Assembly (NCBI GenBank): GCA_019359315.1
Contig: JAHHHO010000053.1
Coordinates: 1 to 35,769 of the forward strand
Direction of reading: 5' to 3'
Source: Myxacorys californica WJT36-NPBG1
Lineage (GTDB): Bacteria > Cyanobacteriota > Cyanobacteriia > Leptolyngbyales > Leptolyngbyaceae
DNA length: 35,769 nucleotides
In this document: piece after piece, positions 9,499 through 32,286 of the stretch
How positions within the stretch are numbered: position 1 is the first letter of the stretch
How the letters are laid out: every line of letters starts with the position of its first letter
Program-made: the position numbers and the translations under genes
Notes under the pieces: model-generated
Seen by the model: only the letters and a program-made list of their open reading frames with translations
What the model was told of the DNA's origin: nothing
Database searches by the model: none

Positions 9499-9921
9499 TT
9501 ATTTAGAGAACAGTACGTCCTCCGTCACAAAATTTGGTCTACGGAAGTAGGCGATCGATTGACGTCCTAGCGTTTTACAACTTTCTGCGCACTGACGACA
9601 AGCTAATGCACATGCCATCATATCTACATTGTCGTTGATCATTTCGCACGCTACGGCGCACTTCTCACACATATCTGCACAAATTGTCGCTGTACGCCCC
9701 ATAAATTCAGAACCATCCATAATCAGGTTCATGCACATCATGCACATCTCCGCACAATCGCGCAGCATGCAGACGAGGTTCATATCTACGCTCTTGCCAG
9801 CCGTCTTCAGATAACGAGACATCGCATCCAGGCAAATCTTATGCACATTGGTGCAGTCTTGGAGGCAAACTTGCATCTCGAGCGTTGTGAATTCTGTTTC
9901 GGTCATTTCTGTTTCGGTCAT
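9499..9921 (-). CDS. Cys-rich four-helix copper-binding protein (Csp/DUF326-like)
   Basis: 140 residues from ATG 9921, with AAGGAG upstream; an upstream ATG at 9966 is less likely. Fifteen Cys fall in a helical repeat pattern (for example C19, C23, C30; C51, C56, C60, C63; C81, C85, C88, C92; C104, C108, C111, C115) with Met-rich spacers. This is the pattern of cytosolic Csp copper-storage proteins, where Cys line the inside of a four-helix bundle and bind Cu(I). No signal peptide is visible. A Cu-binding protein fits an island carrying SBP56, since characterised bacterial methanethiol oxidases are copper dependent. The functional link is inferred. Confidence 0.85.
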   Translation of the reverse strand: MTETEMTETEFTTLEMQVCLQDCTNVHKICLDAMSRYLKTAGKSVDMNLVCMLRDCAEMCMMCMNLIMDGSEFMGRTATICADMCEKCAVACEMINDNVDMMACALACRQCAESCKTLGRQSIAYFRRPNFVTEDVLFSK

Positions 9922-10492
9922 CGTCGCTGTCTCCTTTTTCGTTCTGTAGCGGTAGGAAGGTCGCATCGGGCTTCTGAAAATACGCTAGCGCTAGTGTTTA
10001 GAGGAGTCAATAGGATTGGTGAATGACAAGATTGAAAGGGTAATAAGTTCATCTGATTACCGGGGATTTCAATAATCTACGGTGTTAAAGTGGCCTTTCG
10101 GGATGCATCTTCGTGTAGAACTTGCTTAGGAATTCCTACTCGCATAGTGGGAATTCTCAGAAGAAATGCAGAGGATATGAATTTTGGAAATTAGGTACGG
10201 AAAGAACACGGATTTTGTGTCAAGGTTTCTTGACAATCACTAAAGCCTTCTTTCGCTATCCTGCTCTAGCTTTTATCCCCGGTCTAGAGCTGGAATCTAA
10301 GCGTGATTGGTGAGTCAAGTGATTGGTGAGTCAAGTGATGATTGATGGTGCGATCAGTTCGGCAGAACTCCGTAAGATTGCTACTACTGCTTGCAACTAT
10401 AAATCTCCCTTTTGTCGGATGAAACTCATTCTAAGCAAGCAAATCTACGAGTTGTCTTGTCTTTTTCTCAGCAAGTTCTTAGTATCAATTAA
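9922..10492. other. Gene-poor spacer with a half dyad, a hairpin and a tandem duplication
   Basis: AATCTACGGT at 10074-10083 is a half copy of the sulfur-island dyad. GAATTCCTACT and AGTGGGAATTC at 10130-10156 form a hairpin with a 5-base loop. A 16-bp unit (GATTGGTGAGTCAAGT) is repeated in tandem at 10305-10320 and 10321-10336. I see no convincing gene. Confidence 0.5.
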
Positions 10493-13876: not shown

Positions 13877-14494
13877 CTAGTCCGTTGGTGCATTCGGCAC
13901 TTGAGCATCAATATCTGCTTGAGTCAGATTTGGAATTGCTAAACTTCCTTCACCTGCTTTGAGAATTTTTGCAGGGGAAATATTGAGATCAATCGCGCCC
14001 GCAGGATTTGTTTTCGCTACTAACTGAGTTCCAGGGACAATTTTAAGCGCGATCGCCTCTGTGAGATCCAGAGTGTCAGTCGGCGCGAGAGCAAGTTTGC
14101 CACCACTGGGAAGATAAATTCCTTCACAGGCATAGTCATCATCAGTTTCCTGACCTGCACCTAAATAGTTGAGTGTGCTGGGTTGATTCGCAGGGGCTTT
14201 TTTGGATTTGGTGTAAACGGCTAAAGTCTTTCCGGTTTCATTGCGACACTGCGATCGATCTTCTGCCGTTTCCATGATGTATTTCTCTAACCGTAAACCT
14301 CCCAGTTTTTGCTGAATTTTCTCTGCGCTCAAACCGGATTGTTCAGGGGAGTTGAGAAGATTGTCGATCGCTTGGGTTACTTCGGCATACTCAGGCGTTC
14401 GTATGAATTTGCCTGCATCTGCCCAAGCAGATGGAGCAATGACAACGTTAATTAAAACGAGCAATGCAACGAAAATGAATTTGATTAGGTTCAT
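13877..14494 (-). CDS. Secreted protein of the QCRNETG family, paralog 1
   Basis: 205 residues from ATG 14494 with AAGGAAG upstream. A clean signal peptide runs to a predicted cut after PSAWA (residues 18-22 or so). The mature protein shares with two paralogs in this window a YAEVTQAID helix, a central QCRNETGKTLAVY, a YLGAGQETDDDYACEGIYLPSG block and an ALKIVPGTQLVAKTNP segment. The two conserved Cys could form a disulfide. I do not recognise the family. It lies downstream of a CadD gene, as does paralog 2, so a shared role with CadD is likely but unproven. Confidence 0.7.
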   Translation of the reverse strand: MNLIKFIFVALLVLINVVIAPSAWADAGKFIRTPEYAEVTQAIDNLLNSPEQSGLSAEKIQQKLGGLRLEKYIMETAEDRSQCRNETGKTLAVYTKSKKAPANQPSTLNYLGAGQETDDDYACEGIYLPSGGKLALAPTDTLDLTEAIALKIVPGTQLVAKTNPAGAIDLNISPAKILKAGEGSLAIPNLTQADIDAQVPNAPTD

Positions 14495-14531
14495 AATTTT
14501 CTTCCTTAAGCAATGCAAAACGTTAACGAGA

Positions 14532-14609
14532 TTAGAATCGGAAGAGAAGCTCAAATGCTCTGCTGTCGATGAGCATACATACGCTTAAACCAATTAAAAC
14601 AAAGGGCAT
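14532..14609 (-). pseudogene. Remnant of a third CadD-like gene
   Basis: On the minus strand MPFVLIGLSVCMLIDSRAF aligns with the C-terminal VPFVLIGLGTLILIDSHTL of the intact CadD gene next to it; DNA similarity is also evident between about 14560-14610 and 14812-14860. A stop follows at 14532-14534. This indicates an old tandem duplication of CadD reduced to its tail. Confidence 0.45.
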
Positions 14610-14688
14610 GATCGGTGAAAAGTCCTATCGAAGTAAAATGGTGTGCTTACTTGCGTTAATTCAGCCAACTCATTCTCGATTCAATTCT

Positions 14689-15405
14689 CTAGCTTTTTTC
14701 AGCGTCTGGCGCAATGGTCTCAGAGCGTTTGTTGTTTATGCTGAATGTCAGTAGAAAAATGCAACTGATCACTAGCGTCAGAACGGTTAACCCACGATTT
14801 TCGAGCGTGTGACTATCAATGAGAATTAATGTGCCTAACCCAATCAGCACAAAGGGAACAAGAGAATTCCCGTAGCAAGTTAGAGTCGTTGCGATCGCCG
14901 GAAGCCGAGTGAGTTGAAATGCAGCATAACACCAAACACCAACCAACGAAAAGAAGGTTCCTAGGATCACGATCAAACTTTCTAGACTACTACTCGCGAA
15001 TAACGGCACATAGATCCCAATATTGTCGCCACCATTAGCAAACGTGATCGCAGCAACGCTGTAGGTCTGTGGCGAAAGAATACTGGAGAACAGTGAATTG
15101 TTCGGCGTTTCGGGTTCCACTTCTTCCTCATCGTCTTGATTAAGAAGGCGACTGATCCCAATCGAAATCGGCACAAGCCCAAGCATTCCGATCCAAGGTT
15201 GGGGAAGAAGCAGACTCCCAAAAAAGCCAGGAAGACTCGCAAGAACCAGCGCACCAAAGCCCAGATACTGCCCAGCCACAATGTGTTTATGCCGAAAGAC
15301 GGCATCCACTTGAGAGAAAAACAGCAGCAACATCATAATGTCATCCATGTTGGTGGCTGTAAAAGCCGTGAACCCGGTTGGAAATGCCCGAACTAGTTCA
15401 TCCAT
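14689..15405 (-). CDS. CadD-family (cadmium resistance type) transporter, copy 1
   Basis: 238 residues, about five to six membrane helices. FTATNMDDIMMLLLFFSQ near the N-terminus and FANGGDNIGIYVPLF near residue 120 are the acidic membrane motifs of the Cad family (PF03596, LysE-type superfamily). Family members export Cd2+ or related cations in firmicutes, but the substrate in cyanobacteria is not established. The start is ATG 15405, nine bases after the stop of the amino-acid permease, whose end supplies the GAGGAG ribosome binding site. Copy 2 lies at 29623. Confidence 0.8.
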   Translation of the reverse strand: MDELVRAFPTGFTAFTATNMDDIMMLLLFFSQVDAVFRHKHIVAGQYLGFGALVLASLPGFFGSLLLPQPWIGMLGLVPISIGISRLLNQDDEEEVEPETPNNSLFSSILSPQTYSVAAITFANGGDNIGIYVPLFASSSLESLIVILGTFFSLVGVWCYAAFQLTRLPAIATTLTCYGNSLVPFVLIGLGTLILIDSHTLENRGLTVLTLVISCIFLLTFSINNKRSETIAPDAEKS

Positions 15406-17297: not shown

Positions 17298-18215
17298 ATG
17301 ACTCTGGAACAATTAAGAGTTTTTCTAGCCGTTGCAGAACACATGCATTTTACGAGAGCGGCTGAAGCACTTTACGTTACTCAGCCCGCTGTCAGTGCGG
17401 CAATTCAAAGCCTGGAAGAAGAATACAGCGTGAAATTATTCCATCGTGTCGGTCGTCGGGTTGAGATTGCCGAAGCGGGAAAGCTACTGCAAATGGAGGC
17501 ACAGAAAATTCTCGATCAAGTAGCGTTGACCGAGCGAGGCCTGCGTGAACTGAACAATCTTCAACGTGGTGAATTGAGATTGGGATCAAGTCTGACAATT
17601 GGAAACTACTGGCTGCCAGAAAAAATTAGCCAATTCAAAATTGCCTATCCTGGAATCACTGTGAATTGTACGTTGGCGAATGCGAAGGAAATCTGTGAAG
17701 GGACAGCAACCGGATTTTTTGACCTCGGTTTAGTCACAGGAGATATCCAATCTTCGCTAAAGACGGCACTAGATCAAGAAGTGGTGGGAACGGAACGCTT
17801 TCAAATTGTGGTGGGTCGATCTCATCCTTGGTTTAGTCGCGCTAGGATTTGTGTTAGAGAGCTGACGAAAACGGCTTGGGTGATGCGAGAGCCAGGATCG
17901 GGAACGCAGCAAATTTTAGAGCAAACGCTTCAAGGTTGGGGCATCGATCGGAATCAACTAAATGTGATTTTGGTCTTTAGTACCAGTGAAATGGTGAAGG
18001 CTGTGGTTGAAAGTGGCGTGGGTGCTGCTGCGATTCCTGAATTGATGGTGCAAAAGGAGTTACAGCTTTCGACGCTACGGGCGATCGAGATTACCAATAG
18101 CCGCAAAGGGACGGGATCGATTTTAGAAATTGTGCAGCCCGTTTGGAAGCTGAAGCATCGAGAGCGATTTCAAACCCAACTCGCGATCGCATTTGAACAA
18201 ATGCTAATGACGTGA
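17298..18215 (+). CDS. LysR-family transcriptional regulator
   Basis: 305 residues. The N-terminal winged helix (MTLEQLRVFLAVAEHMHFTR then AAEALYVTQPAVSAAIQSLE) is canonical, and the C-terminal part is the two-lobed effector domain. The family size is normal. CysB and CbbR-like members use the same architecture, and the effector cannot be read from sequence. The divergent position suggests it controls the amino-acid permease. It converges with the SPFH gene 21 bp downstream. Confidence 0.9.
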   Translation: MTLEQLRVFLAVAEHMHFTRAAEALYVTQPAVSAAIQSLEEEYSVKLFHRVGRRVEIAEAGKLLQMEAQKILDQVALTERGLRELNNLQRGELRLGSSLTIGNYWLPEKISQFKIAYPGITVNCTLANAKEICEGTATGFFDLGLVTGDIQSSLKTALDQEVVGTERFQIVVGRSHPWFSRARICVRELTKTAWVMREPGSGTQQILEQTLQGWGIDRNQLNVILVFSTSEMVKAVVESGVGAAAIPELMVQKELQLSTLRAIEITNSRKGTGSILEIVQPVWKLKHRERFQTQLAIAFEQMLMT

Positions 18216-19354: not shown

Positions 19355-20707
19355 ATGGCACATACATGTTGTGGACCAGGTTACGCTTCCCCAGAGGCGG
19401 CGATCAAAGCAGAGCGGGAAAAGCTGTTGTATACGATCGCGCTCTATACCGGAACTAGCATCGAGGAACCCGACTATCTCGCTACGATCGATGTCGATTC
19501 AAACTCTCCCACTTACGGCCAAGTGATTCATCGCCTACCGATGCCCTACATTGGTGATGAACTCCACCACTTCGGCTGGAATGCCTGTAGTTCTTGTCAT
19601 GAGGATGCGACTAAATCTCGCAGATTCTTAGTGATTCCCGCGATTCGGTCTAGCCGTATTTACATTGTTGACACTGCCGATGCTAAGGCTCCCAAAATTC
19701 ATAAGGTGATTGAGCCAGAGGAAATCAAAGCAAAAACGAATCTTACTGCACCTCATACCGTTCATTGTCTTGCCAATAGTCAAATCATGATTTCGATGTT
19801 GGGAGATGGAGAAGGCAATGGTCCCGGTGGCTTTTTACTCCTCGATGACAACTTTGATATTGCTGGGCGGTGGGAACATCACGCCGATGCGATGAAGTTC
19901 AACTACGACTTCTGGTATCAACCGCGTCATAACGTCATGGTCAGTAGTGAATGGGGTGCGCCCAAAACGTTTTATCCAGGCTTTGATCTCAATGATGTTT
20001 CGGCAGATCACTATGGGCATCAACTCCACTTTTGGGATTGGCAGAAGCATGACATTATCCAAAGTATTGATTTAGGCGAGGAAGGGTTAATTCCGTTAGA
20101 AGTTCGGTTTCATCACAATCCTGACAGCACACATGGTTATGTTGGTGCTGCACTCAGCAGTAATATTTGGCATTGGAGCAAAGAAAACGGACAGTGGGCG
20201 GTGAGTAAAGTTGTCGATGTGCCGCCTGTAGAGCTTGAAGGATGGGCATTTCCGGTGCCATCATTGATTACAGATCTTTTAATTTCACTTGACGATCGCT
20301 ATCTCTATTTTTCCAACTGGCTCCACGGCGACATTCGCCAATACGACATTCGTGATCCGGCTCAGCCAAAACTTACAGGGCAAGTGTGGTGCGGTGGCCT
20401 ACTAGGCAAGAGTGTTGCAGTGAAAGGTCGTAAACTCGTCGGAGGTCCGCAGATGCTGCAACTGAGTTTAGATGGCAAGCGGCTTTACGTGACGAGTTCC
20501 CTCTTTAGTACGTGGGATAATCAATTCTATCCAGAAATGAGCAAAACGGGTTCGTACCTGCTGCAAATCGATTGTGACACTGAGAACGGCGGACTCTCGA
20601 TCAATGAAGATTTTTACATTGATTTTGGCAAAGAACCGAAGGGTCCGGCTCGTGCCCACGAGATGCGTTATCCGGGCGGAGACACTACTTCGGATATCTG
20701 GATTTAA
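19355..20707 (+). CDS. mtoX: Methanethiol oxidase / selenium-binding protein SBP56
   Basis: 450 residues, start MAHTCCGPGYASPEAA, the hallmark of the SBP56 family. Further signatures are HHFGWNACSSCH (about residues 71-82), APHTVHCL, SSEWGAP, the HHNPDSTHGYVGAAL block and PGGDTTSDIW at the C-terminus. Characterised bacterial MtoX oxidises methanethiol to formaldehyde, hydrogen sulfide and hydrogen peroxide (EC 1.8.3.4) and needs copper. No signal peptide is visible, so a cytoplasmic form is likely. The [2Fe-2S] ferredoxin gene begins two bases after its stop, so the two are cotranscribed. The family is secure; the substrate in this organism is inferred. Confidence 0.9.
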   Translation: MAHTCCGPGYASPEAAIKAEREKLLYTIALYTGTSIEEPDYLATIDVDSNSPTYGQVIHRLPMPYIGDELHHFGWNACSSCHEDATKSRRFLVIPAIRSSRIYIVDTADAKAPKIHKVIEPEEIKAKTNLTAPHTVHCLANSQIMISMLGDGEGNGPGGFLLLDDNFDIAGRWEHHADAMKFNYDFWYQPRHNVMVSSEWGAPKTFYPGFDLNDVSADHYGHQLHFWDWQKHDIIQSIDLGEEGLIPLEVRFHHNPDSTHGYVGAALSSNIWHWSKENGQWAVSKVVDVPPVELEGWAFPVPSLITDLLISLDDRYLYFSNWLHGDIRQYDIRDPAQPKLTGQVWCGGLLGKSVAVKGRKLVGGPQMLQLSLDGKRLYVTSSLFSTWDNQFYPEMSKTGSYLLQIDCDTENGGLSINEDFYIDFGKEPKGPARAHEMRYPGGDTTSDIWI

Positions 20708-20709
20708 TC

Positions 20710-21036
20710 GTGAAAACGCATCGGATTGAATTAGTCAACCGGAACAACATCACGATCGATGTCGCTGAAAACCAAACCATTTTAGACGCGATCGAGCAAG
20801 CCGGATTATGCTTACCCGTCGGCTGCCGCTATGGTGTTTGCATCACTTGCGCTGCTAAGTTAGTTCAAGGCACAGTAGACCAGACTGAAGCCCGTTGTCT
20901 AAAGCCAGAGCAAATTGCAGCGGGCTATGTTTTGCTATGCATTGCGTATGCAAAGTCGGATTCTAAATTTGAAGTGGGTGCCGAGTGCCAAGAAGCTCTT
21001 TACCCGAATCCCTTTAGGGGGATCAGCAAAGATTGA
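20710..21036 (+). CDS. Plant-type [2Fe-2S] ferredoxin
   Basis: 108 residues from GTG 20710, two bases after the mtoX stop. Cluster ligands are C39, C44 and C47 (CRYGVCITC) with C77, exactly the plant-type spacing. The C-terminal tail (NPFRGISKD) is longer than in photosynthetic ferredoxin. The tight pairing suggests it passes electrons to or from the SBP56 enzyme or protects it, which is inferred and not part of the usual MtoX picture. Confidence 0.9.
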   Translation: MKTHRIELVNRNNITIDVAENQTILDAIEQAGLCLPVGCRYGVCITCAAKLVQGTVDQTEARCLKPEQIAAGYVLLCIAYAKSDSKFEVGAECQEALYPNPFRGISKD

Positions 21037-21166: not shown

Positions 21167-22091
21167 AGACTTCTTGCAAAAGTCACGAATCTAGGTCTGA
21201 AGTAGATGTGTGAAGCATGGCTAATTCATAATTGTACAAATCTGCAATCAAGTTGAACCGTAAACCAAACCGCTTACGACGGTTGCGGTAGCGCTCTGCC
21301 ACAATGCGCCAGATCTTCAAGCGGCGGTTCACATGTTCGGCAATCACGCGCCGTCGTGCTAAATCACGGTTGTAGTGTCGATCCGGTTTGTCCAACGCTG
21401 CCTTTCTCGATTTTTTCTTAGGGGTCTGGCTGTTGGAATGCAGGTTGAGGATGCCTTGGTAGCCCTTGTCAGCCAGCAGTTGAATCTTGGAACTCACGGG
21501 AAGACGGCTCTGCTTGAAGAGGCGAAAATCGTGCACTCGACCTTTGGCAAAAGCCGTACAAATAATCCTTCCGGTTGACTGGTCGACCACGACTTGCGAC
21601 TTGAGCGTATGGCGTTTCTTTTTACCGGAGTAGAATTGTCGCCCTTTTTTTAGGGCGTTCCACCGGAGTCTCGGTTACATCGACCACGAGTACCTCAAGT
21701 TCATGCTCGCTAGCGTACAGCTTTTTCTGACCAGGCAAGGCGAAGCGCCCTGACCCAATTAGGGTCTCTTCCACAGACCGGATAGTTCGGTAGGCAGTAG
21801 ATTCATCTACCCCCCACGATTGAGCAATATGAAAATACGTGCGCTACTCTCGCCAATACTGCAACGTCATCAGTAATGGATTCGGGATGCTCAACTTTGA
21901 CGGTCTACCTGGCTTACGCTTCTGTCGAGCTTTTGCTTCCAGCACGGCTACCATTTCGGCAAACGTCTCCGGACGCACTCCGCATAGCCGTTTGAACGCT
22001 TCTGGTCTGAAATCTTGAACTTGCTCGTAGGTCATCGACTTTCCCTCCTTAACCTACTTCTACTCAGTTCTCAGACTTTTGCAAGAAGTCT
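21167..22091 (-). mobile_element. IS5-family insertion sequence
   Basis: 925 bp with perfect 18-bp terminal repeats (AGACTTCTTGCAAAAGTC) at 21167-21184 and 22074-22091. ACT on both sides (21164-21166 and 22092-22094) is a probable 3-bp target duplication. The perfect ends indicate recent insertion. It lies between the ferredoxin terminator and the regulatory region of ssuA. Confidence 0.85.
21183..22035 (-). pseudogene. IS5-family transposase with an internal TAG and an A7 frameshift site
   Basis: The N-terminal part starts at ATG 22035 and meets TAG at 21844-21846 (in YWRE*RTYFHIAQSWG). The frame then stays open through VVVDVTETPVERPKK, with the first catalytic Asp. At 21645-21651 a run of seven A on the coding strand changes frame by +1, and the C-terminal half continues with LLADKGYQG (second Asp) and IAEHVNRRLK (Glu) to 21183. 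IS5-type elements often split their transposase at such A-runs, so the shift may be functional. The TAG is probably inactivating. The stop codon lies inside the left terminal repeat. Confidence 0.75.
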
Positions 22092-22409: not shown

Positions 22410-23456
22410 ATGATGTCTAGAAAGCTTCCGAACCCGTCTCTCACCCGATCTTCGACTGGATTGCTCGCGATCGGATTGGGATTGAGTGTTGCGATCGCGT
22501 CTTGCACACCAAGCAATTCAACAAATCAACTGACCTCGAATCTGCCTAATTCCTCCCCTGCAAGCAGTACGAATGCTGGTCAGAATAACGAAGGACAGTT
22601 GGTTCGGATTGGCTATCAGAAGTTTGGAACACTCAATATCCTCAAAGCACGCGGCAACCTAGATCAACAGTTAAAAAAACAAGGTATCTCAGTTCAGTGG
22701 ATTCAATTTCCAGCAGGACCGCAACTTTTAGAAGCTTTGAACACAGGCAGTATTGATTTTGGACACACGGGGGAAGCACCCCCCGTCTTTGCCCAAGCGG
22801 CAAACGCACCCTTGCTTTATATTGCAAGCCAAACCCCAAACCCCAAGGCTGAAGCCATCCTAGTTCGCAAAGATTCTGCCCTTCAATCGGTAGCCGATCT
22901 CAAAGGAAAGACCATCGCACTCAACAAAGGCTCGAATGTCCATTTTCTGTTAGTGAAAGCTCTGGCAGACGCAGGTGTGAAATACGAAGATGTCATGCTA
23001 AAGTTCTTGCCGCCTGCGGATGCAAGAGCCGCTTTCGAGCAGGGCCGTGTGGATGCTTGGGTGATCTGGGATCCATTTTTTAGCGCCGCGAAGCGAGCGA
23101 CTGAGGCGCGGGTTCTTAGAGACGGAGAAGGACTTGTTGCCAATCGAGAGTTTTATTTAGCGGCAAAGCCGTTTAATGACAAATATCCTGAGCGAATCAA
23201 GACTGTACTTGAAGAAATCAAGAAAGCGGATGTCTGGGCAAAGGAGAACGTCACTGATGCTGCAAAACTTCTCTCGCCGGAACTGGGAATTGATGTGGCA
23301 ACGCTAGAAGAAGTGCTGCAACGTCGTCCTTCTGGAGTCCAGTCGATCAGTCCAGATATTGTGAAATATCAACAAGACATTGCTAATACGTTTCTCAAAT
23401 TAAAGCTGCTGCCAAAAGCGATCGACGTAAAAGAAGTGGCTCAAACAACACCATAG
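22410..23456 (+). CDS. ssuA: Aliphatic sulfonate ABC transporter substrate-binding lipoprotein
   Basis: 348 residues. AGGAG lies upstream of a double ATG (22410 and 22413). The signal peptide ends in a lipobox, IASC, so Cys32 would be lipidated. A Ser/Asn/Thr-rich tether follows, then the binding domain: IGYQKFGTLNILKARG and GSIDFGHTGEAPPVFAQA are characteristic of SsuA-type proteins. It delivers alkanesulfonates to SsuC. First gene of ssuADCB, behind two 34-bp dyads. Confidence 0.9.
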   Translation: MMSRKLPNPSLTRSSTGLLAIGLGLSVAIASCTPSNSTNQLTSNLPNSSPASSTNAGQNNEGQLVRIGYQKFGTLNILKARGNLDQQLKKQGISVQWIQFPAGPQLLEALNTGSIDFGHTGEAPPVFAQAANAPLLYIASQTPNPKAEAILVRKDSALQSVADLKGKTIALNKGSNVHFLLVKALADAGVKYEDVMLKFLPPADARAAFEQGRVDAWVIWDPFFSAAKRATEARVLRDGEGLVANREFYLAAKPFNDKYPERIKTVLEEIKKADVWAKENVTDAAKLLSPELGIDVATLEEVLQRRPSGVQSISPDIVKYQQDIANTFLKLKLLPKAIDVKEVAQTTP

Positions 23457-23488
23457 AAATCTGAAGAAAACCAGCAAAGAGACAATTC

Positions 23489-24646
23489 ATGCAACTACTT
23501 TGGTTTATTCCAACTCACGGAGACGGACACTATCTCGCAAGCGCGATCGGGGGCAGAGCGACGACGTTTCCTTACCTCAAGCAAATTGCTCAAGCAGCCG
23601 ATGAATTAGGGTTTGCAGGCGCTTTGCTGCCGACAGGTCGTTCCTGTGAAGATGCTTGGGTGCTGGCATCGGCATTAGCCGCTGTAACGCGACAGATGCG
23701 ATTTTTGGTGGCAATTCGTCCGGGGCTGATGTCGCCGGGGGTAGCTGCAAGAATGGCGGCAACCTTCGATCGAATTTCTGAAGGACGGTTGCTGATCAAT
23801 GTTGTTACAGGCGGCGATCCCGTCGAACTCGCCGGAGATGGCGTGCATTTAAGCCATGACGATCGCTACCGTTTAACCGATGAATTTCTAACCGTGTGGC
23901 GCAAAATCGCCTCCGGAGAAAGTGCAAATTTTCAGGGCGATTATCTTGATGTTCGCGATGGCAAACTACTGTTTCCACCCGTGCAGAACCCCTACCCGCC
24001 TTTGTGGTTTGGCGGATCGTCTCCCATTGCTCAAGAGATTGCTGCAAAGCATGTGGATGTCTATCTGACGTGGGGTGAACCACCGGAGCGAGTCGCAGAA
24101 AAAATTGCTTCAGTTCGCCAGTTAGCAGAGGCAGAAGGGCGAACCTTACGGTTTGGCATTCGGCTACATGTGATTGTGCGAGAAACCGAAGATGAGGCTT
24201 GGGCGGCGGCAAATCGGTTAATTCGCTATGTCGATGAAAGCGCGATCGCAACTGCCCAAAAAGTTTATGCTCGAATGGATTCAGAAGGTCAACGCCGAAT
24301 GACTCAGCTACATGACGGTAGCCGTGAAGCGTTAGAAATTAGTCCAAACTTGTGGGCTGGTGTAGGTTTGGTACGAGGGGGCGCAGGCACAGCGTTAGTC
24401 GGTGATCCCGATACTGTTGCTGCTCGTATGTTGGAATATGTTGACTTAGGGATTGAAACTTTTATTCTCTCTGGCTATCCCCATTTAGAAGAAGCGTATC
24501 GTGTAGCTGAACTGCTTTTTCCTCGATTGCCATTGGAGAATTTGCCCAAGCGTGAAGAGCAGCACGTCATTAGTCCGTTTGGGGAAATCGTCGCAAATGA
24601 GAAATTTTCATTGCAATCTAGAAAAGCTGCTGCCACAGTAGATTGA
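23489..24646 (+). CDS. ssuD: FMNH2-dependent alkanesulfonate monooxygenase
   Basis: 385 residues of the luciferase-like TIM-barrel fold. [13 protein letters not shown] opens the chain, TGRSCEDAW contains the conserved active-site region Cys, and [19 protein letters not shown] matches the flexible loop. It splits the C-S bond of alkanesulfonates with O2 and reduced flavin, giving an aldehyde and sulfite. The reduced FMN normally comes from SsuE, which is not encoded in this window. It starts 32 bp after ssuA. Confidence 0.95.
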
Positions 24647-24707
24647 CCCAAAGATTGTCCCAAATCTAGACTGACCCAAAACTTTATCCCTTAAAAAGGG
24701 CTACTAT

Positions 24708-25487
24708 ATGAAAAAACGATTCAACAAACGACTTGATCAACTCATCCCTTGGGGCGTTCCCATTCTGCTGATTGTGATTTGGCAGTTATTGGCACAGGTT
24801 GGCTGGCTTTCAACTCGTATCTTGCCTGCACCGACTGCCGTTTTGCTGGCCGGAATTCGTTTAGCAAGTACTGGGGAACTGTGGCAGCATCTTAGCGTGA
24901 GCGCAAGCCGTGCCGTGACTGGCTTCCTAATTGGTGGCGGAATTGGGTTCACACTAGGCATCATCAATGGCGTTTCTAATGTATCTGAAAAACTGTTAGA
25001 TACCTCATTGCAGATGTTACGAAATGTTCCTCATCTCGCCATGATTCCCTTAGTGATTTTATGGTTTGGAATCGGTGAAGAAGCAAAGTTATTTCTAGTT
25101 TCGCTTGGGGTTTTATTTCCGGTTTATCTCAACACCTTCCATGGCGTTCGCACTGTTGATCCTGGGCTGTTGGAAATGGGTAAAGTCTATGGATTAAAGC
25201 CCTGGGAATTATTTCTGCAAGTTATTCTTCCCAATGCATTACCTTCTATTTTGATTGGGGTAAGGTTTTCACTAGGAATTACTTGGTTAACCCTGATTGT
25301 TGCAGAAACGATCGCAGCCGATTCAGGCATTGGCTACCTAGCGATGAATGCTCGCGAATTTATGCAAACCGATGTGGTCGTCTTTAGCATTCTCATCTAT
25401 GCCTTACTTGGCAAACTTGCAGATTCAATGGCGAAGTTTTTTGAAGCGAGATTGTTAGCGTGGCATCCCAGTTACCAGTTAACTTAG
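24708..25487 (+). CDS. ssuC: Aliphatic sulfonate ABC transporter permease
   Basis: 259 residues with about six membrane helices. The cytoplasmic coupling loop [20 protein letters not shown] is the EAA motif that contacts SsuB. The start is ATG 24708 after a 61-bp gap from ssuD. Family length is normal. Confidence 0.9.
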
Positions 25488-25543
25488 ATGACACTTTGAA
25501 TTGCACACATTCCATTACAGGGGTTAACAAGGGGTTTTGTCCG

Positions 25544-26320
25544 ATGACATCAATTAATGGAGCCGATTTAAAGGTTCTAAACCTCACCAAGCGATTTGGC
25601 GATCAGCAGGTGTTGCGGGAAGTCGATTTAGAAGTGATGCCAGGAGAGTTTATTGCGATCGTTGGACGCAGTGGTTGTGGAAAAAGCACGCTACTGCGCC
25701 TCGTTGCGGGCTTAGACCGTCCTTCAGAGGGTAGAGTGCTGGTGAATGGAACTCCCGTGCGACGTGTCGATCCATCAGCACGAATGATGTTCCAAGATGC
25801 GCGGCTTCTGATGTGGAAACGAGTGCTAGAAAATGTTGGATTAGGCTTACGAAATAACTGGCGAAGTAAAGCGAAATGGGCGCTTCAGCAAGTTGGACTA
25901 GCAGATCGAGCAAAGGAGTATCCCGCTGTGCTTTCTGGCGGGCAGCGTCAACGGGTGGCACTTGCTAGAGCGTTGGTCAGTGAACCTCGTCTGTTACTGC
26001 TAGATGAGCCGCTGGGTGCATTGGATGCTCTAACGCGAATTGAAATGCAGCAGTTAATCGAACAGCTTTGGCAGGAGCAGCAATTTACCGCCTTGCTGGT
26101 GACTCATGATGTCGAGGAAGCAGTGACCTTAGCCGATCGCGTCATCCTGATTGAATCCGGTCAAATCGTGATGAATATACCGATTGTGCTTTCCCGTCCG
26201 CGCCACCGCGGAGATGCTGCATTTGCCGCGATCGCTGATCACATTCTCAAACGGATTCTTAATAAAGCAGATGTTGATCAAGACCATACAGAAAGCAGTC
26301 AAGAACTTGTGCTTCATTAA
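25544..26320 (+). CDS. ssuB: Aliphatic sulfonate ABC transporter ATP-binding protein
   Basis: 258 residues from ATG 25544 ([14 protein letters not shown]); a GTG at 25460 inside ssuC would add 28 residues unlike the family. Walker [10 protein letters not shown] is near 41-49, the signature LSGGQRQR and Walker [12 protein letters not shown] follow, then LVTHDVEEA. It lacks a long regulatory domain, as usual for SsuB. Last gene of the operon, followed by a strong hairpin. Confidence 0.9.
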
Positions 26321-27073: not shown

Positions 27074-27367
27074 ATGCTCGTTTCAAATGCTTCTAGATCT
27101 TGCAATATGACCCATGTTCGTGTTCATATCAGCATTCCCCATCAGTATCAGCAAGAACCGATTATTTCTCGCCTGATTTCTGAGCATAGTCTAGTGGTTA
27201 ATATTACTGGCGCGATCGTAGGAACTAATCTTCATGAGAAAGGGCTGTTCGACCTAGAGCTGAATGGAACTCCTGAGAAAATTTGCAGCGGTTTGTTATA
27301 CCTACAAACCTTAGGCATCAAACTGATTGGAAAACCAAATGCTGAAGGAGATAGCTGGCACTACTAA
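27074..27367 (+). CDS. Stand-alone NIL-domain protein
   Basis: 97 residues from ATG 27074, or 86 from ATG 27107 (MTHVRVHISIP). The domain reads RVHISIPHQYQQEPIISRLI, VVNITGAIVGTN and GLFDLELNG with a final KLIGKP, matching the NIL domain. In MetN ATPases this ACT-like domain binds methionine and inhibits transport. A free copy next to sulfonate genes may sense an S-amino acid; that is inferred. Confidence 0.75.
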   Translation: MLVSNASRSCNMTHVRVHISIPHQYQQEPIISRLISEHSLVVNITGAIVGTNLHEKGLFDLELNGTPEKICSGLLYLQTLGIKLIGKPNAEGDSWHY

Positions 27368-29622: not shown

Positions 29623-30393
29623 ATGAATGAGCTCATCACAGCAATTCCTACAGGAATCACTGCTTTCATTGCAACTAACTTAGATGACATTGTGATTCTG
29701 CTCCTGTTCTTTTCTCAGATTAATGCAGTATTCCGCCGCCGCCACATTATCATAGGTCAATATCTCGGATTTGCGACGCTAGTGTTAGCTAGTCTTCCAG
29801 GCTTCTTTGGTGGTTTAGTGTTTCCACGCGATTGGGTAGGCATGTTAGGAATTCTTCCGATCGCGATTGGAATGAGTCGGCTGCTAACTCCGAATACGGA
29901 TGAACCTGAAAACGAGTCTGAAACAGCACAAGCTGAAAATTCTACCTTAGCTATGCTGTTCTCCCCCCAAAGTTACAGTGTCGCTGCCGTAACGTTTGCC
30001 AATGGTGGCGATAATGTCGGAATTTATGTTCCCTTGTTTGCTAACTGCACTTGGGACAGTCTACTTGTGATTTTGGGAGTGTTTTTCTCGATGGTGAGCC
30101 TTTGGTGTTATGCCGCGTATCAACTGATTCGGGTGCCTGCGATCGCAGATACACTCGCCCGCTATGGCAATCATCTTGTTCCCTTCGTCCTAATCGGATT
30201 GGGTGTTCTGATTCTAATCGACAGCCATACGCTAGAAAATCGGGGTTTAGCGGCTCTAACGCTAGTGATTGTAGGGCTGTGGTTTTTGAAATTAGTCAGA
30301 ACCCTAGGCTCTGGTGCAGTTGTCATGCTACAAGTCGAAAAAATTAGCACCCTTCGCAGATCTTTCTTGTCATTCCTCTTTCTTCATTCCTAA
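29623..30393 (+). CDS. CadD-family transporter, copy 2
   Basis: 256 residues, closely similar to copy 1 along its length (FIATNLDDIVILLLFFSQ; FANGGDNVGIYVPLF; VPFVLIGLGVLILIDSHTL). The C-terminal 25 residues differ and are more basic. The start is ATG 29623, two bases after DUF1003, and the secreted paralog 2 follows after 12 bases, so the three form one operon. Cation export is the family function; the cation here is unknown. Confidence 0.8.
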   Translation: MNELITAIPTGITAFIATNLDDIVILLLFFSQINAVFRRRHIIIGQYLGFATLVLASLPGFFGGLVFPRDWVGMLGILPIAIGMSRLLTPNTDEPENESETAQAENSTLAMLFSPQSYSVAAVTFANGGDNVGIYVPLFANCTWDSLLVILGVFFSMVSLWCYAAYQLIRVPAIADTLARYGNHLVPFVLIGLGVLILIDSHTLENRGLAALTLVIVGLWFLKLVRTLGSGAVVMLQVEKISTLRRSFLSFLFLHS

Positions 30394-30405
30394 AAGGAGA
30401 CGCTC

Positions 30406-31029
30406 ATGAGATTCCTCAAGTTTGTTGTAGTTGCTTTAGTGATGTTGGTAAACTTTGCGATCGCTTCTCCTTCATGGGCAGGTAAAGATTTCACTAAAGG
30501 TGCAGACTACGCTGAAGTAACACAGTCGATCAATCAACTCTTGCAGTCAAAGAACACGTCTGAACAACTCGGTTACACGCAAGAAGAATTGCAACAGAGA
30601 TTAGCAGAGCTACAGCTTCAGCAACACATCATGCAAACGGCGACAAAGCGAGCGCAATGCCGCAATGAAACTGGACACACGCTTGCCGTTTATGCCAATC
30701 TGCCCAAAAAATCTCCGACTTCTCTTTACTTTCTTGGATCGGGAAAAATTACAGACGATGATTGGGATTGTGATGGCGTCTACTTGCCCAGCGGAACAAG
30801 CGTAGCGATCTCTCCCAATCAATCTGAACAAACGCTCACAGCCCCTTCTGCCCTTAAGATTGTTGACGGCACGCACTTGGTGACCCGAGCCAATCCGCAG
30901 ACAGGTGCGATCGAATTCAATACCTTTCCTGCCAAGACGTTTCAAGCAGGACAAGTCAATTGGGCAATTCCAAACTGGTCTCAAACAGAGATTGATGCAA
31001 AACCGCTCAGCAAGGAAATCTTGGACTAA
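30406..31029 (+). CDS. Secreted protein of the QCRNETG family, paralog 2
   Basis: 207 residues with AAAGGAG before ATG 30406. The signal peptide ends at ASPSWA. Conserved blocks are DYAEVTQSIN, QCRNETGHTLAVY, SLYFLGSGKITDDDWDCDGV, YLPSG and ALKIVDGTHLVTRANP. The two Cys (in QCR and WDCDG) are kept in all three paralogs. It is the third gene of the DUF1003-CadD operon, repeating the CadD-then-secreted-protein order seen at 15405-13877. Confidence 0.75.
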   Translation: MRFLKFVVVALVMLVNFAIASPSWAGKDFTKGADYAEVTQSINQLLQSKNTSEQLGYTQEELQQRLAELQLQQHIMQTATKRAQCRNETGHTLAVYANLPKKSPTSLYFLGSGKITDDDWDCDGVYLPSGTSVAISPNQSEQTLTAPSALKIVDGTHLVTRANPQTGAIEFNTFPAKTFQAGQVNWAIPNWSQTEIDAKPLSKEILD

Positions 31030-31556: not shown

Positions 31557-31671
31557 ATCGTTGGTTACAGTGAAGCTGTGCTGGTTAGAAGTACAAATTA
31601 GCTCGCTCAACACAGTTTTTTTGCTTTCTGTACTTTGGCTCAAGTGTCTTTCAATTTACGAGGTGCCCAAT

Positions 31672-32286
31672 ATGAAACTTTTGAAAATCACGCTGGTAAT
31701 CGTGGTGTTTCTAGTTAATCTCACAATCGCTTCTCCTTCTTGGGCGGATCGCCCTAAAGTCAGCAAAAATGCAGACTACGTTCAAGTGACAAAAACGCTC
31801 GATCGCTTACTTCAAGAACGAGAATCGGACGGTTCTACACCCGCCTTGAAGCAACAAATTGATGAATTACAACTTCAGAAAGCTGCGATCGCGTCAGGAG
31901 TTACGTGGGGACAGTGCCGCAATGAAACAGGAAACACGTTAGCGATCTATGGTCCCGCTTCAGAAGAATCGAAGTTTACAAACGGGACACTTTACTTCTT
32001 GGCCGATGGACAAACCACACCCGACAACTGGGATTGCGCTGGAGTCTATCTACCCAGTGGAATCAAAGCAGCAGGAATTGATTCTACCACTGCCTCCGTG
32101 TTCAAAATTATGGATGGCACTCAGCTTATAGCGAAACGTAATTCTGATACAGGAGAAATTGTCTTTAATGTTCCACCATTGAAAGATTTCAAAGAAGGTG
32201 AAACTACCTCAATCCCCAGTATCTCGCAAACATTTATCAACTCACGCATTCCTAGTACTCTGTCTGCCGAAGAGCTAGACGATTAA
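31672..32286 (+). CDS. Secreted protein of the QCRNETG family, paralog 3
   Basis: 204 residues from ATG 31672 with GAGG upstream; the frame extends to 31561 but without a signal-like start. Signal peptide MKLLKITLVIVVFLVNL ... SPSWA. Shared blocks: DYVQVTKTLDRLL, QCRNETGNTLAIY, LYFLADGQTTPDNWDCAGV, YLPSG, VFKIMDGTQLIAKRN. Unlike the other two it has no CadD gene directly before it. A terminator follows. Confidence 0.75.
   Translation: MKLLKITLVIVVFLVNLTIASPSWADRPKVSKNADYVQVTKTLDRLLQERESDGSTPALKQQIDELQLQKAAIASGVTWGQCRNETGNTLAIYGPASEESKFTNGTLYFLADGQTTPDNWDCAGVYLPSGIKAAGIDSTTASVFKIMDGTQLIAKRNSDTGEIVFNVPPLKDFKEGETTSIPSISQTFINSRIPSTLSAEELDD

Follow-up and report, generated by a model that had tools for sequence, protein, structure and literature searches.

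The SBP56 family includes human SELENBP1 and SEMO-1 of C. elegans, for neither of which we know of a ferredoxin partner, as well as bacterial methanethiol oxidases (MTOs). MtoX of Hyphomicrobium sp. VS and Ruegeria pomeroyi (SPOA0269) has the SBP56 fold and a conserved histidine copper site and oxidizes methanethiol; it is predicted to be periplasmic, carries a signal peptide and has SCO1 and MauG as neighbours (PMC5739008; unless stated otherwise, PMC numbers refer to excerpts of the papers). The 'cluster 1' MTOs RdMTO and RlMTO of Rhodobacteraceae (Cao et al. 2024) were assayed as purified enzymes or in E. coli cells alone (PMC10936201). The products of methanethiol oxidases are disputed, with reports of H2S and H2O2 (PMC5739008, PMC10362175) versus sulfane sulfur and water (PMC10936201). 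Here we describe an SBP56 gene directly followed by a gene for a plant-type [2Fe-2S] ferredoxin in the cyanobacterium Myxacorys californica WJT36-NPBG1, on a stretch of 35,769 nucleotides (contig JAHHHO010000053.1) that we call the window. SBP56 methanethiol oxidases as such were already known; a cytosolic one with its own ferredoxin is apparently new.

The SBP56 gene (19355..20707, + strand) encodes 450 amino acids, the ferredoxin gene (20710..21036, +) 108 amino acids from a GTG start. Both genes are intact, and two bases separate the SBP56 stop (20707) from the ferredoxin GTG (20710), exactly as the original prediction had claimed. Its wording 'fused by operon' holds for the adjacency and not for the proteins, which are encoded by separate genes. 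A promoter and terminator scan gave no signal exceeding shuffled sequences. The SBP56 gene is the sole PF05694 match in the window genome (G000, contig C30).

The SBP56 protein matched PF05694 over its full length (731.5 bits, residues 5-450, cut-off 34). Against the NCBIfam MtoX equivalog NF052453 it reached 143.8 bits, below the cut-off of 650, which sets it apart from the periplasmic mtoX described by Eyice et al.; the earlier label 'mtoX' is a loose one. Unlike MtoX, the window protein has a ferredoxin beside it. Judged by eye, its N-terminus (MAHTCCGPGYASPEAAIKAER) shows no hydrophobic stretch and no apparent signal peptide. Its AlphaFold2 model is a propeller (predicted local distance difference test score, pLDDT, 91.3) whose top match in the PDB is Sulfolobus 2ece at a template modelling score of 0.94. 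The closest SBP56 among the matches listed, from Microseira, is 86% identical.

Motifs, read without an alignment to SELENBP1 numbering, point to counterparts of the HH, HxxH, Asp and Glu residues of SELENBP1 and SEMO-1, which in the human protein are needed for activity (PMC10362175). These are His71-His72 (19565..19570) and His134-x-x-His137 (19754..19765) of the copper site and the putative copper-site residues Asp185 (19907..19909) and Glu249 (20099..20101), all on the + strand. Without exception the 140 aligned homologues keep each of these residues, and likewise His435 (20657..20659, +), the probable counterpart, matched without alignment, of His412 in Hyphomicrobium MtoX. The GWNACS and HTVHC motifs of RdMTO and RlMTO are both present and, judged by motifs alone, the window protein and the cluster 1 MTOs most likely form the same branch. 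The third cluster 1 motif, GGDCS(T), is replaced by GGDTTSD, so that the GGDC of those enzymes reads GGDT and Thr444 (20684..20686, +) takes the place of a residue that is Cys in 113 of the 140 homologues. This Cys is catalytic in cluster 1 enzymes according to Cao et al. (PMC10936201); given its distribution and the Thr in the window, their mechanism in its proposed form cannot cover every member. The window protein is probably a cytosolic enzyme of the 'cluster 1'/SELENBP1-like type, a predicted copper-dependent methanethiol (alkylthiol) oxidase.

The ferredoxin scored 62.9 bits against Fer2 (cut-off 21) and 83.2 bits against fdx_plant TIGR02008 (cut-off 81.15), and its AlphaFold2 model (pLDDT 92.5) had the cyanobacterial ferredoxin 1rfk as top PDB match. 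A profile built from 35 SBP56-linked ferredoxins (A1), which its own rows match by construction, gave 162.9 bits with the window sequence, itself such a row. The cluster ligands Cys39-x4-Cys44-x2-Cys47 (20824..20850, +) and Cys77 (20938..20940, +) are invariant in A1. PetF shares the [2Fe-2S] fold; its acidic surface serves in binding FNR and photosystem I, and its FLDDDQ stretch in FNR binding. The linked ferredoxins have lost both features and instead end in the signature VGxE-x4-LYxNPF (20974..21015, +, in the window), which typifies the bacterial members, is looser in four haloarchaeal ones and was not found in the PetF sequences examined. Within A1 the columns G90, L97, N100 and P101 are invariant and the V91-equivalent column, Y98 and F102 nearly so. 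The window ferredoxin, with a net charge of -2, lacks the strong acidity of PetF (-15 to -17, n=5). Net charges ranged from -3 to +4 across 15 cyanobacterial linked ferredoxins and from -4 to -12 in the haloarchaeal ones, and averaged +1.3 in the other bacterial ones (n=41).

We compared the window with its relatives, taken as the best 80 of at least 596 stretches from genome contigs, near-identical SAR11 rows among them, so that the counts describe its nearest relatives. A ferredoxin of the same type lies at most 1 kb 3' of SBP56 on the same strand in 43 of the 80, a gene pairing that exceeds chance. It lies farther away in one more, and three have less than 600 bp of downstream sequence, where its state is not assessable. 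The carriers comprise SAR11, Rhodobacterales, Granulosicoccus, Planktomarina, some cyanobacteria and metagenome-assembled genomes (MAGs) of SAR116, Acidimicrobiia and Chloroflexi; taxon names of MAG loci may reflect misbinning (for example Bacteroidetes L020 and Flavobacteriaceae L062). No adjacent ferredoxin was found in the relatives from Planctomycetes, Thermogemmatispora, Rubrobacter (including a plasmid) or Geminicoccus, nor beside more distant SBP56 proteins of 42-45% identity (Azospirillum, Phyllobacterium, Rhodobacter). On plasmid records of two Rhodobacterales, Phaeobacter inhibens and Paracoccus seriniphilus, the ferredoxin directly follows SBP56. It does so on four of eight haloarchaeal plasmids examined; the haloarchaea without an adjacent ferredoxin are Haloterrigena turkmenica, N. 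bangense, N. salinisoli and N. gelatinilyticum.

Ferredoxin starts, and hence gaps, were set by script to the nearest start codon; on this basis 12 of the 54 loci with a gap below 700 bp overlap by 1-10 bases, and the gap is at most 40 bases in 29, overlaps counted. Overlaps of four bases occur in SAR11 and N. occultus. Among 59 ferredoxin matches over all loci, some genomes counted twice, no case is upstream of SBP56 on its own strand, and the two on the opposite strand have PetF sequence. The original prediction hinged on conservation of the pair in other genomes, and overall the pair is indeed kept across phyla and in haloarchaea. Such conservation in unrelated organisms hints at an enzyme form that works with an electron supply of its own.

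Whole-genome searches tied the linked ferredoxin to SBP56. Within the cyanobacterial family of genome G380, 57 of 217 genomes contain an SBP56 match (fragments counted) and 15 a linked ferredoxin (A1, E<=1e-34). All 15 are among the 57; the chance of this overlap is 4e-10 under an assumption of independent genomes, which does not hold. The ferredoxin gene is adjacent in five of the 15; in six it is on the SBP56 strand at a distance of 1.8-5.6 kb downstream, and in four it is farther away or on another contig. PF05694 matched in seven of 386 genomes sampled across the cyanobacterial phylum, five of them at full length; a linked ferredoxin was present in one, the window genome. The window's own family (42 genomes) has SBP56 in two members, G000 and G564, and the same two carry the linked ferredoxin, at 162.9 and 169.2 bits, against 106.8 for the runner-up ferredoxin in the family. 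Fourteen genomes behind the loci yielded eight linked ferredoxins at 165-177 bits, with other ferredoxins at 99.6 or below. In the one SAR11 genome among these, searched over about 0.9 Mb, the linked ferredoxin was the single match to A1 at E<=1e-10. Rows of A1 account for seven of the 15 positives in the G380 family and seven of the eight in the 14-genome search, leaving 8/15 and 1/8 outside the profile.

Evolutionary distances within SBP56 and within the ferredoxin are correlated (0.80 over 46 pairs, 0.71 over the 42 bacterial pairs), with a maximum of 0.39 in 2000 permutations of the whole set. Common organismal history contributes to this correlation. A single clade was not rejected either for 61 linked-type ferredoxins, including four unlinked in place and four haloarchaeal ones (approximately unbiased, AU, test, p 0.485), or for the 57 bacterial linked ferredoxins (AU p 0.537). 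The free ferredoxin tree contained no single linked clade, and four other ferredoxins on long branches fell among the haloarchaeal ones. In L063, L071, L077 and L086, which share the gene order SBP56, CoA-binding protein, ferredoxin, SBP56 belongs to one proteobacterial group and the ferredoxin to another, a sign of partner exchange. The SBP56 tree (101 rows kept) came from a quick search with long branches flagged, and was thinned of rows that agreed in ferredoxin state and were 93% or more identical; the ferredoxin tree omitted identical sequences and one weak row (<40 bits). L019, whose SBP56 is in two frames, was left out of both trees and the 140-homologue alignment, and L170, L171, L174 and L175, with broken or partial SBP56, out of the alignment, trees, and neighbour and cyanobacterial counts. 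Ten apparent repeats of other genomes in the set (L009-L018) were left out of the neighbour clusters and counts, the alignment, the SBP56 tree and the distance correlation. The broken or partial SBP56 genes of L019, L170, L171, L174 and L175, all in cyanobacteria, may reflect repeated loss.

Genes within 7 kb were counted with bit cut-offs that we set ourselves, on loci of unequal length; the queries were drawn mostly from ferredoxin loci, so that the counts favour finding neighbours beside the ferredoxin. Among non-cyanobacterial loci with (n=45) versus without (n=33) a ferredoxin, we counted the copper chaperone PpoB2 in 8 versus 0, a CoA-binding protein in 18 versus 1, formaldehyde dehydrogenase in 6 versus 0, persulfide dioxygenase in 7 versus 1, SQR in 7 versus 0, a DmdA-like protein in 9 versus 0, enoyl-CoA hydratase in 10 versus 1 and IclR in 9 versus 1. 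A Rhodobacteraceae MAG (L074) illustrates this setting. Divergent from SBP56 it encodes an SQR-like protein (182.5 bits, below the cut-off of 525), an S-formylglutathione hydrolase (TIGR02821, 414 bits, above cut-off), a persulfide dioxygenase-like protein (top match NF040641, 391.7 bits against a cut-off of 625) and a glutathione-dependent formaldehyde dehydrogenase (TIGR02818, 607.5, above cut-off); then follow SBP56, the ferredoxin and PpoB2 (PF09948, 90.6, cut-off 28.7). The order on the Phaeobacter plasmid is SBP56, ferredoxin, CoA-binding protein, rhodanese (the record's name), a sulfur dioxygenase-like protein (367.1/625), enoyl-CoA hydratase, acyl-CoA ligase and a DmdA-like protein whose top NCBIfam match, DMSP (dimethylsulfoniopropionate) demethylase, lies just below cut-off (377/410). 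Part of the proteobacterial loci provide for methanethiol formation, formaldehyde, sulfide and copper, fitting an oxidation of methanethiol. At the same distance and cut-offs the cyanobacterial loci yielded no PpoB2, CoA-binding protein, formaldehyde dehydrogenase, persulfide dioxygenase, SQR, DmdA-like protein or enoyl-CoA hydratase, and methanethiol as the substrate of the window enzyme therefore rests on homology. A zinc dehydrogenase between SBP56 and ferredoxin in locus L129 was considered as a formaldehyde dehydrogenase and rejected, its best NCBIfam match being keto-inositol dehydrogenase (141/450 bits).

From these comparisons we propose, with slightly less than even confidence, that the ferredoxin may donate electrons to the copper/O2 chemistry of SBP56 during turnover. 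The linked ferredoxins of bacteria are near neutral or basic where PetF is strongly acidic, and the window SBP56 has a net charge of -22; the ferredoxin (Fd) would dock on this acidic propeller and hand its electrons over at the copper site, where O2 would go to water and the sulfur would leave as sulfide, according to CH3SH + O2 + 2 Fd(red) + 2 H+ -> HCHO + H2S + H2O. Such a ferredoxin-driven mode would replace an autonomous mode releasing H2O2, or the reported H2O2-free mode releasing sulfane sulfur. By a rough calculation from formation energies, the potential of the couple HCHO+H2S/CH3SH is close to 0 V, which would make a usual low-potential ferredoxin the donor and not the acceptor. A functional analogy, and no more than that, is offered by the formylglycine-generating enzyme (FGE), which has a fold unrelated to SBP56 and acts on peptidyl-cysteine. 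As proposed for the window enzyme, FGE depends on copper and uses O2 to convert a thiol to an aldehyde; it requires two electrons from an external reductant, and what supplies them in nature is unknown (PMC12123546). The wider claim that the whole SBP56 branch of SAR11, roseobacters, cyanobacteria and haloarchaea might be driven by ferredoxin, taking up two electrons and yielding formaldehyde along with sulfide and water, and forming no H2O2 or sulfane sulfur, is a bolder one and we consider it rather doubtful.

Several observations weigh against an electron-donating ferredoxin. Cluster 1 enzymes were active in vitro without ferredoxin (PMC10936201), and SELENBP1 made in E. coli was active (PMC10362175). 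No linked-type ferredoxin is present in the examined downstream flank of 33 of the 80 relatives. The survey of cyanobacterial neighbours called for by the original prediction gave a divided answer, with the pair present in some cyanobacteria and no linked ferredoxin anywhere, at E<=1e-34, in 42 of the 57 SBP56 genomes of the G380 family. Thermogemmatispora (G603) and Gemmataceae (G610) genomes possess SBP56 and have no A1 match at E<=1e-10, so the enzyme can function without the linked ferredoxin. No ferredoxin reductase stood out in the neighbour clusters, where no systematic search for one was made. Mean net charges of SBP56 in the tree set were -27.7 where a ferredoxin is adjacent and -20.5 where none is, so that acidity of SBP56 is not specific to the paired enzymes. 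Four further cyanobacterial ferredoxins ranged from -11 to +1, and low acidity is therefore not unique to the linked type. The linked ferredoxin is dedicated to SBP56 and is not obligatory.

An accessory factor would fit this dispensability in many genomes more readily than a stoichiometric donor. The ferredoxin could mature or prime the enzyme, reducing Cu(II) to Cu(I) or rescuing oxidized enzyme, much as MauG possibly does beside periplasmic MtoX. The periplasmic operon consists of mtoX, the copper chaperone gene SCO1 and MauG (PMC5739008), an arrangement mirrored by PpoB2 in 8 of the 45 non-cyanobacterial ferredoxin loci; a copper chaperone and a redox protein can thus accompany either enzyme type. 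However, SELENBP1 (PMC10362175) and cluster 1 enzymes (PMC10936201) from E. coli were active without a dedicated maturase, and we judge a priming role rather less likely than donation. Another role for the ferredoxin would be to reduce a persulfide or disulfide on the enzyme so that sulfide is released in place of sulfane sulfur, and the Cys-S-S-CH3 adduct and sulfane sulfur release reported for cluster 1 enzymes (PMC10936201) speak for it. Yet the Cys called catalytic there, replaced by Thr in the window and conserved as counted above, is also missing from 5 of 54 SBP56 proteins with an adjacent ferredoxin, which leaves this role quite improbable.

Electrons might instead flow from methanethiol oxidation to the ferredoxin and then enter, for instance, the photosynthetic chain, as the original prediction had suggested; a plant-type [2Fe-2S] ferredoxin in a phototroph invites the thought. 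Against it, most carriers among the 80 relatives are non-phototrophs, judged by organism names, the acidic charge of PetF is lost, and by the rough potential above the reduction of a low-potential ferredoxin would be uphill. We regard an acceptor role as improbable, and the photosynthetic part of the earlier proposal is not supported. What survives is that the ferredoxin goes with this type of SBP56 and that a different electron route, as donor, or a part in priming the metal centre is plausible. That the two genes are chance or hitch-hiking neighbours without functional interaction finds some support in 10 of the 15 ferredoxin-carrying genomes of the G380 family, where the ferredoxin is kilobases away or unlinked. 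The constant strand and downstream order across phyla, the restriction to SBP56 genomes where tested and the parallel distances make such an accident highly improbable. Of all these readings, donation of electrons by the ferredoxin during turnover is the most likely, followed by priming of the copper site.

Ten window proteins between 14.7 and 24.6 kb were scanned with Pfam: SBP56, the ferredoxin, a Band_7 protein, a LysR regulator, an amino acid permease, CadD-like, SsuA-like and luciferase-like proteins, a transposase and one without match; neither SCO1 nor MauG is among them. The LysR-type regulator (17298-18215, +) had a selenium-metabolism-associated LysR model as its top NCBIfam match, below cut-off (190.8/250). 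Downstream of the pair lies an alkanesulfonate (ssu) operon (22410-26320, +) with an SsuA-like protein, an FMNH2-dependent alkanesulfonate monooxygenase (620 bits, above cut-off) and, by eye, a permease and an ATPase, which gives the window a sulfur context of its own. A transposase remnant (21183-22035, -; DDE_Tnp_4 match 21183-21590, and a frame of 63 amino acids at 21844-22035, -, without Pfam match) sits between the ferredoxin and this operon, so the ssu genes may adjoin by insertion or rearrangement.

A Cys-rich protein (9499-9966, -) had been put forward as the supplier of copper. It resembles the Csp3 copper-storage proteins (RkCSP3, CSP3), has no Pfam match and is encoded some 9.4 kb away from SBP56, and a scan of the loci out to 7 kb from SBP56 revealed no relative of this protein; its likeness to a copper protein is upheld, and we rejected it as the copper source of the pair for want of a neighbourhood link. 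A NIL-domain protein is encoded at 27074-27367 (+), and a longer protein with two NIL domains stands upstream of SBP56 in many cyanobacterial loci (for example L117; a match within 7 kb in 26); the domain is otherwise familiar from methionine transporters. By eye, a CadD-like transporter paired with a secreted-looking protein of about 200 amino acids occurs twice in the window, and the small protein is present a third time (13877-15405, -; 29623-31029, +; 31561-32286, +). In four ferredoxin-free cyanobacteria of one genus (L164, L165, L166, L169) a gene named by eye as peroxiredoxin-glutaredoxin-like directly follows SBP56 (+134 to +138). We rejected a downstream peroxiredoxin as a mark of H2O2-making, ferredoxin-free loci, since among cyanobacterial loci it was found in 10 of 38 without versus 1 of 19 with a ferredoxin (unlinked ones counted as 'with'), a difference at p 0.079 between related rows.

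Among the papers that we examined from a library of open-access full texts, none describes the SBP56-ferredoxin pair, a result limited to that library. The word 'ferredoxin' does not appear in the main texts of PMC5739008, PMC10936201, PMC10277263, PMC12262181 and PMC13360808; PMC8371827, PMC8498564 and PMC10974252 use it in other contexts only. Table 1 of a Monterey Bay metatranscriptome study lists ratios of 0.42 for gene 2517702558 (CoA-binding), 0.34 for 2517702559 (ferredoxin) and 0.47 for 2517702560 (selenium-binding), all three higher in the same Rhodobacteraceae species, where 51 of 2196 core genes differed; the accessible excerpt of that paper treats them separately (PMC10203303). From their consecutive numbers we infer that these genes are the SBP56-ferredoxin operon.

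Methanethiol is a main product of marine DMSP breakdown, and its fate sets the split of sulfur among dimethyl sulfide, sulfide and cell material. The pair also matters for how SAR11 and roseobacter genomes are interpreted, since the records examined give the ferredoxin no more than a generic name. A conserved and apparently undescribed carrier beside cytosolic enzymes would offer a direct way to settle the dispute over products. If this branch of SBP56 is driven by ferredoxin, the conflicting product reports would stem from assays that lacked the natural electron donor.

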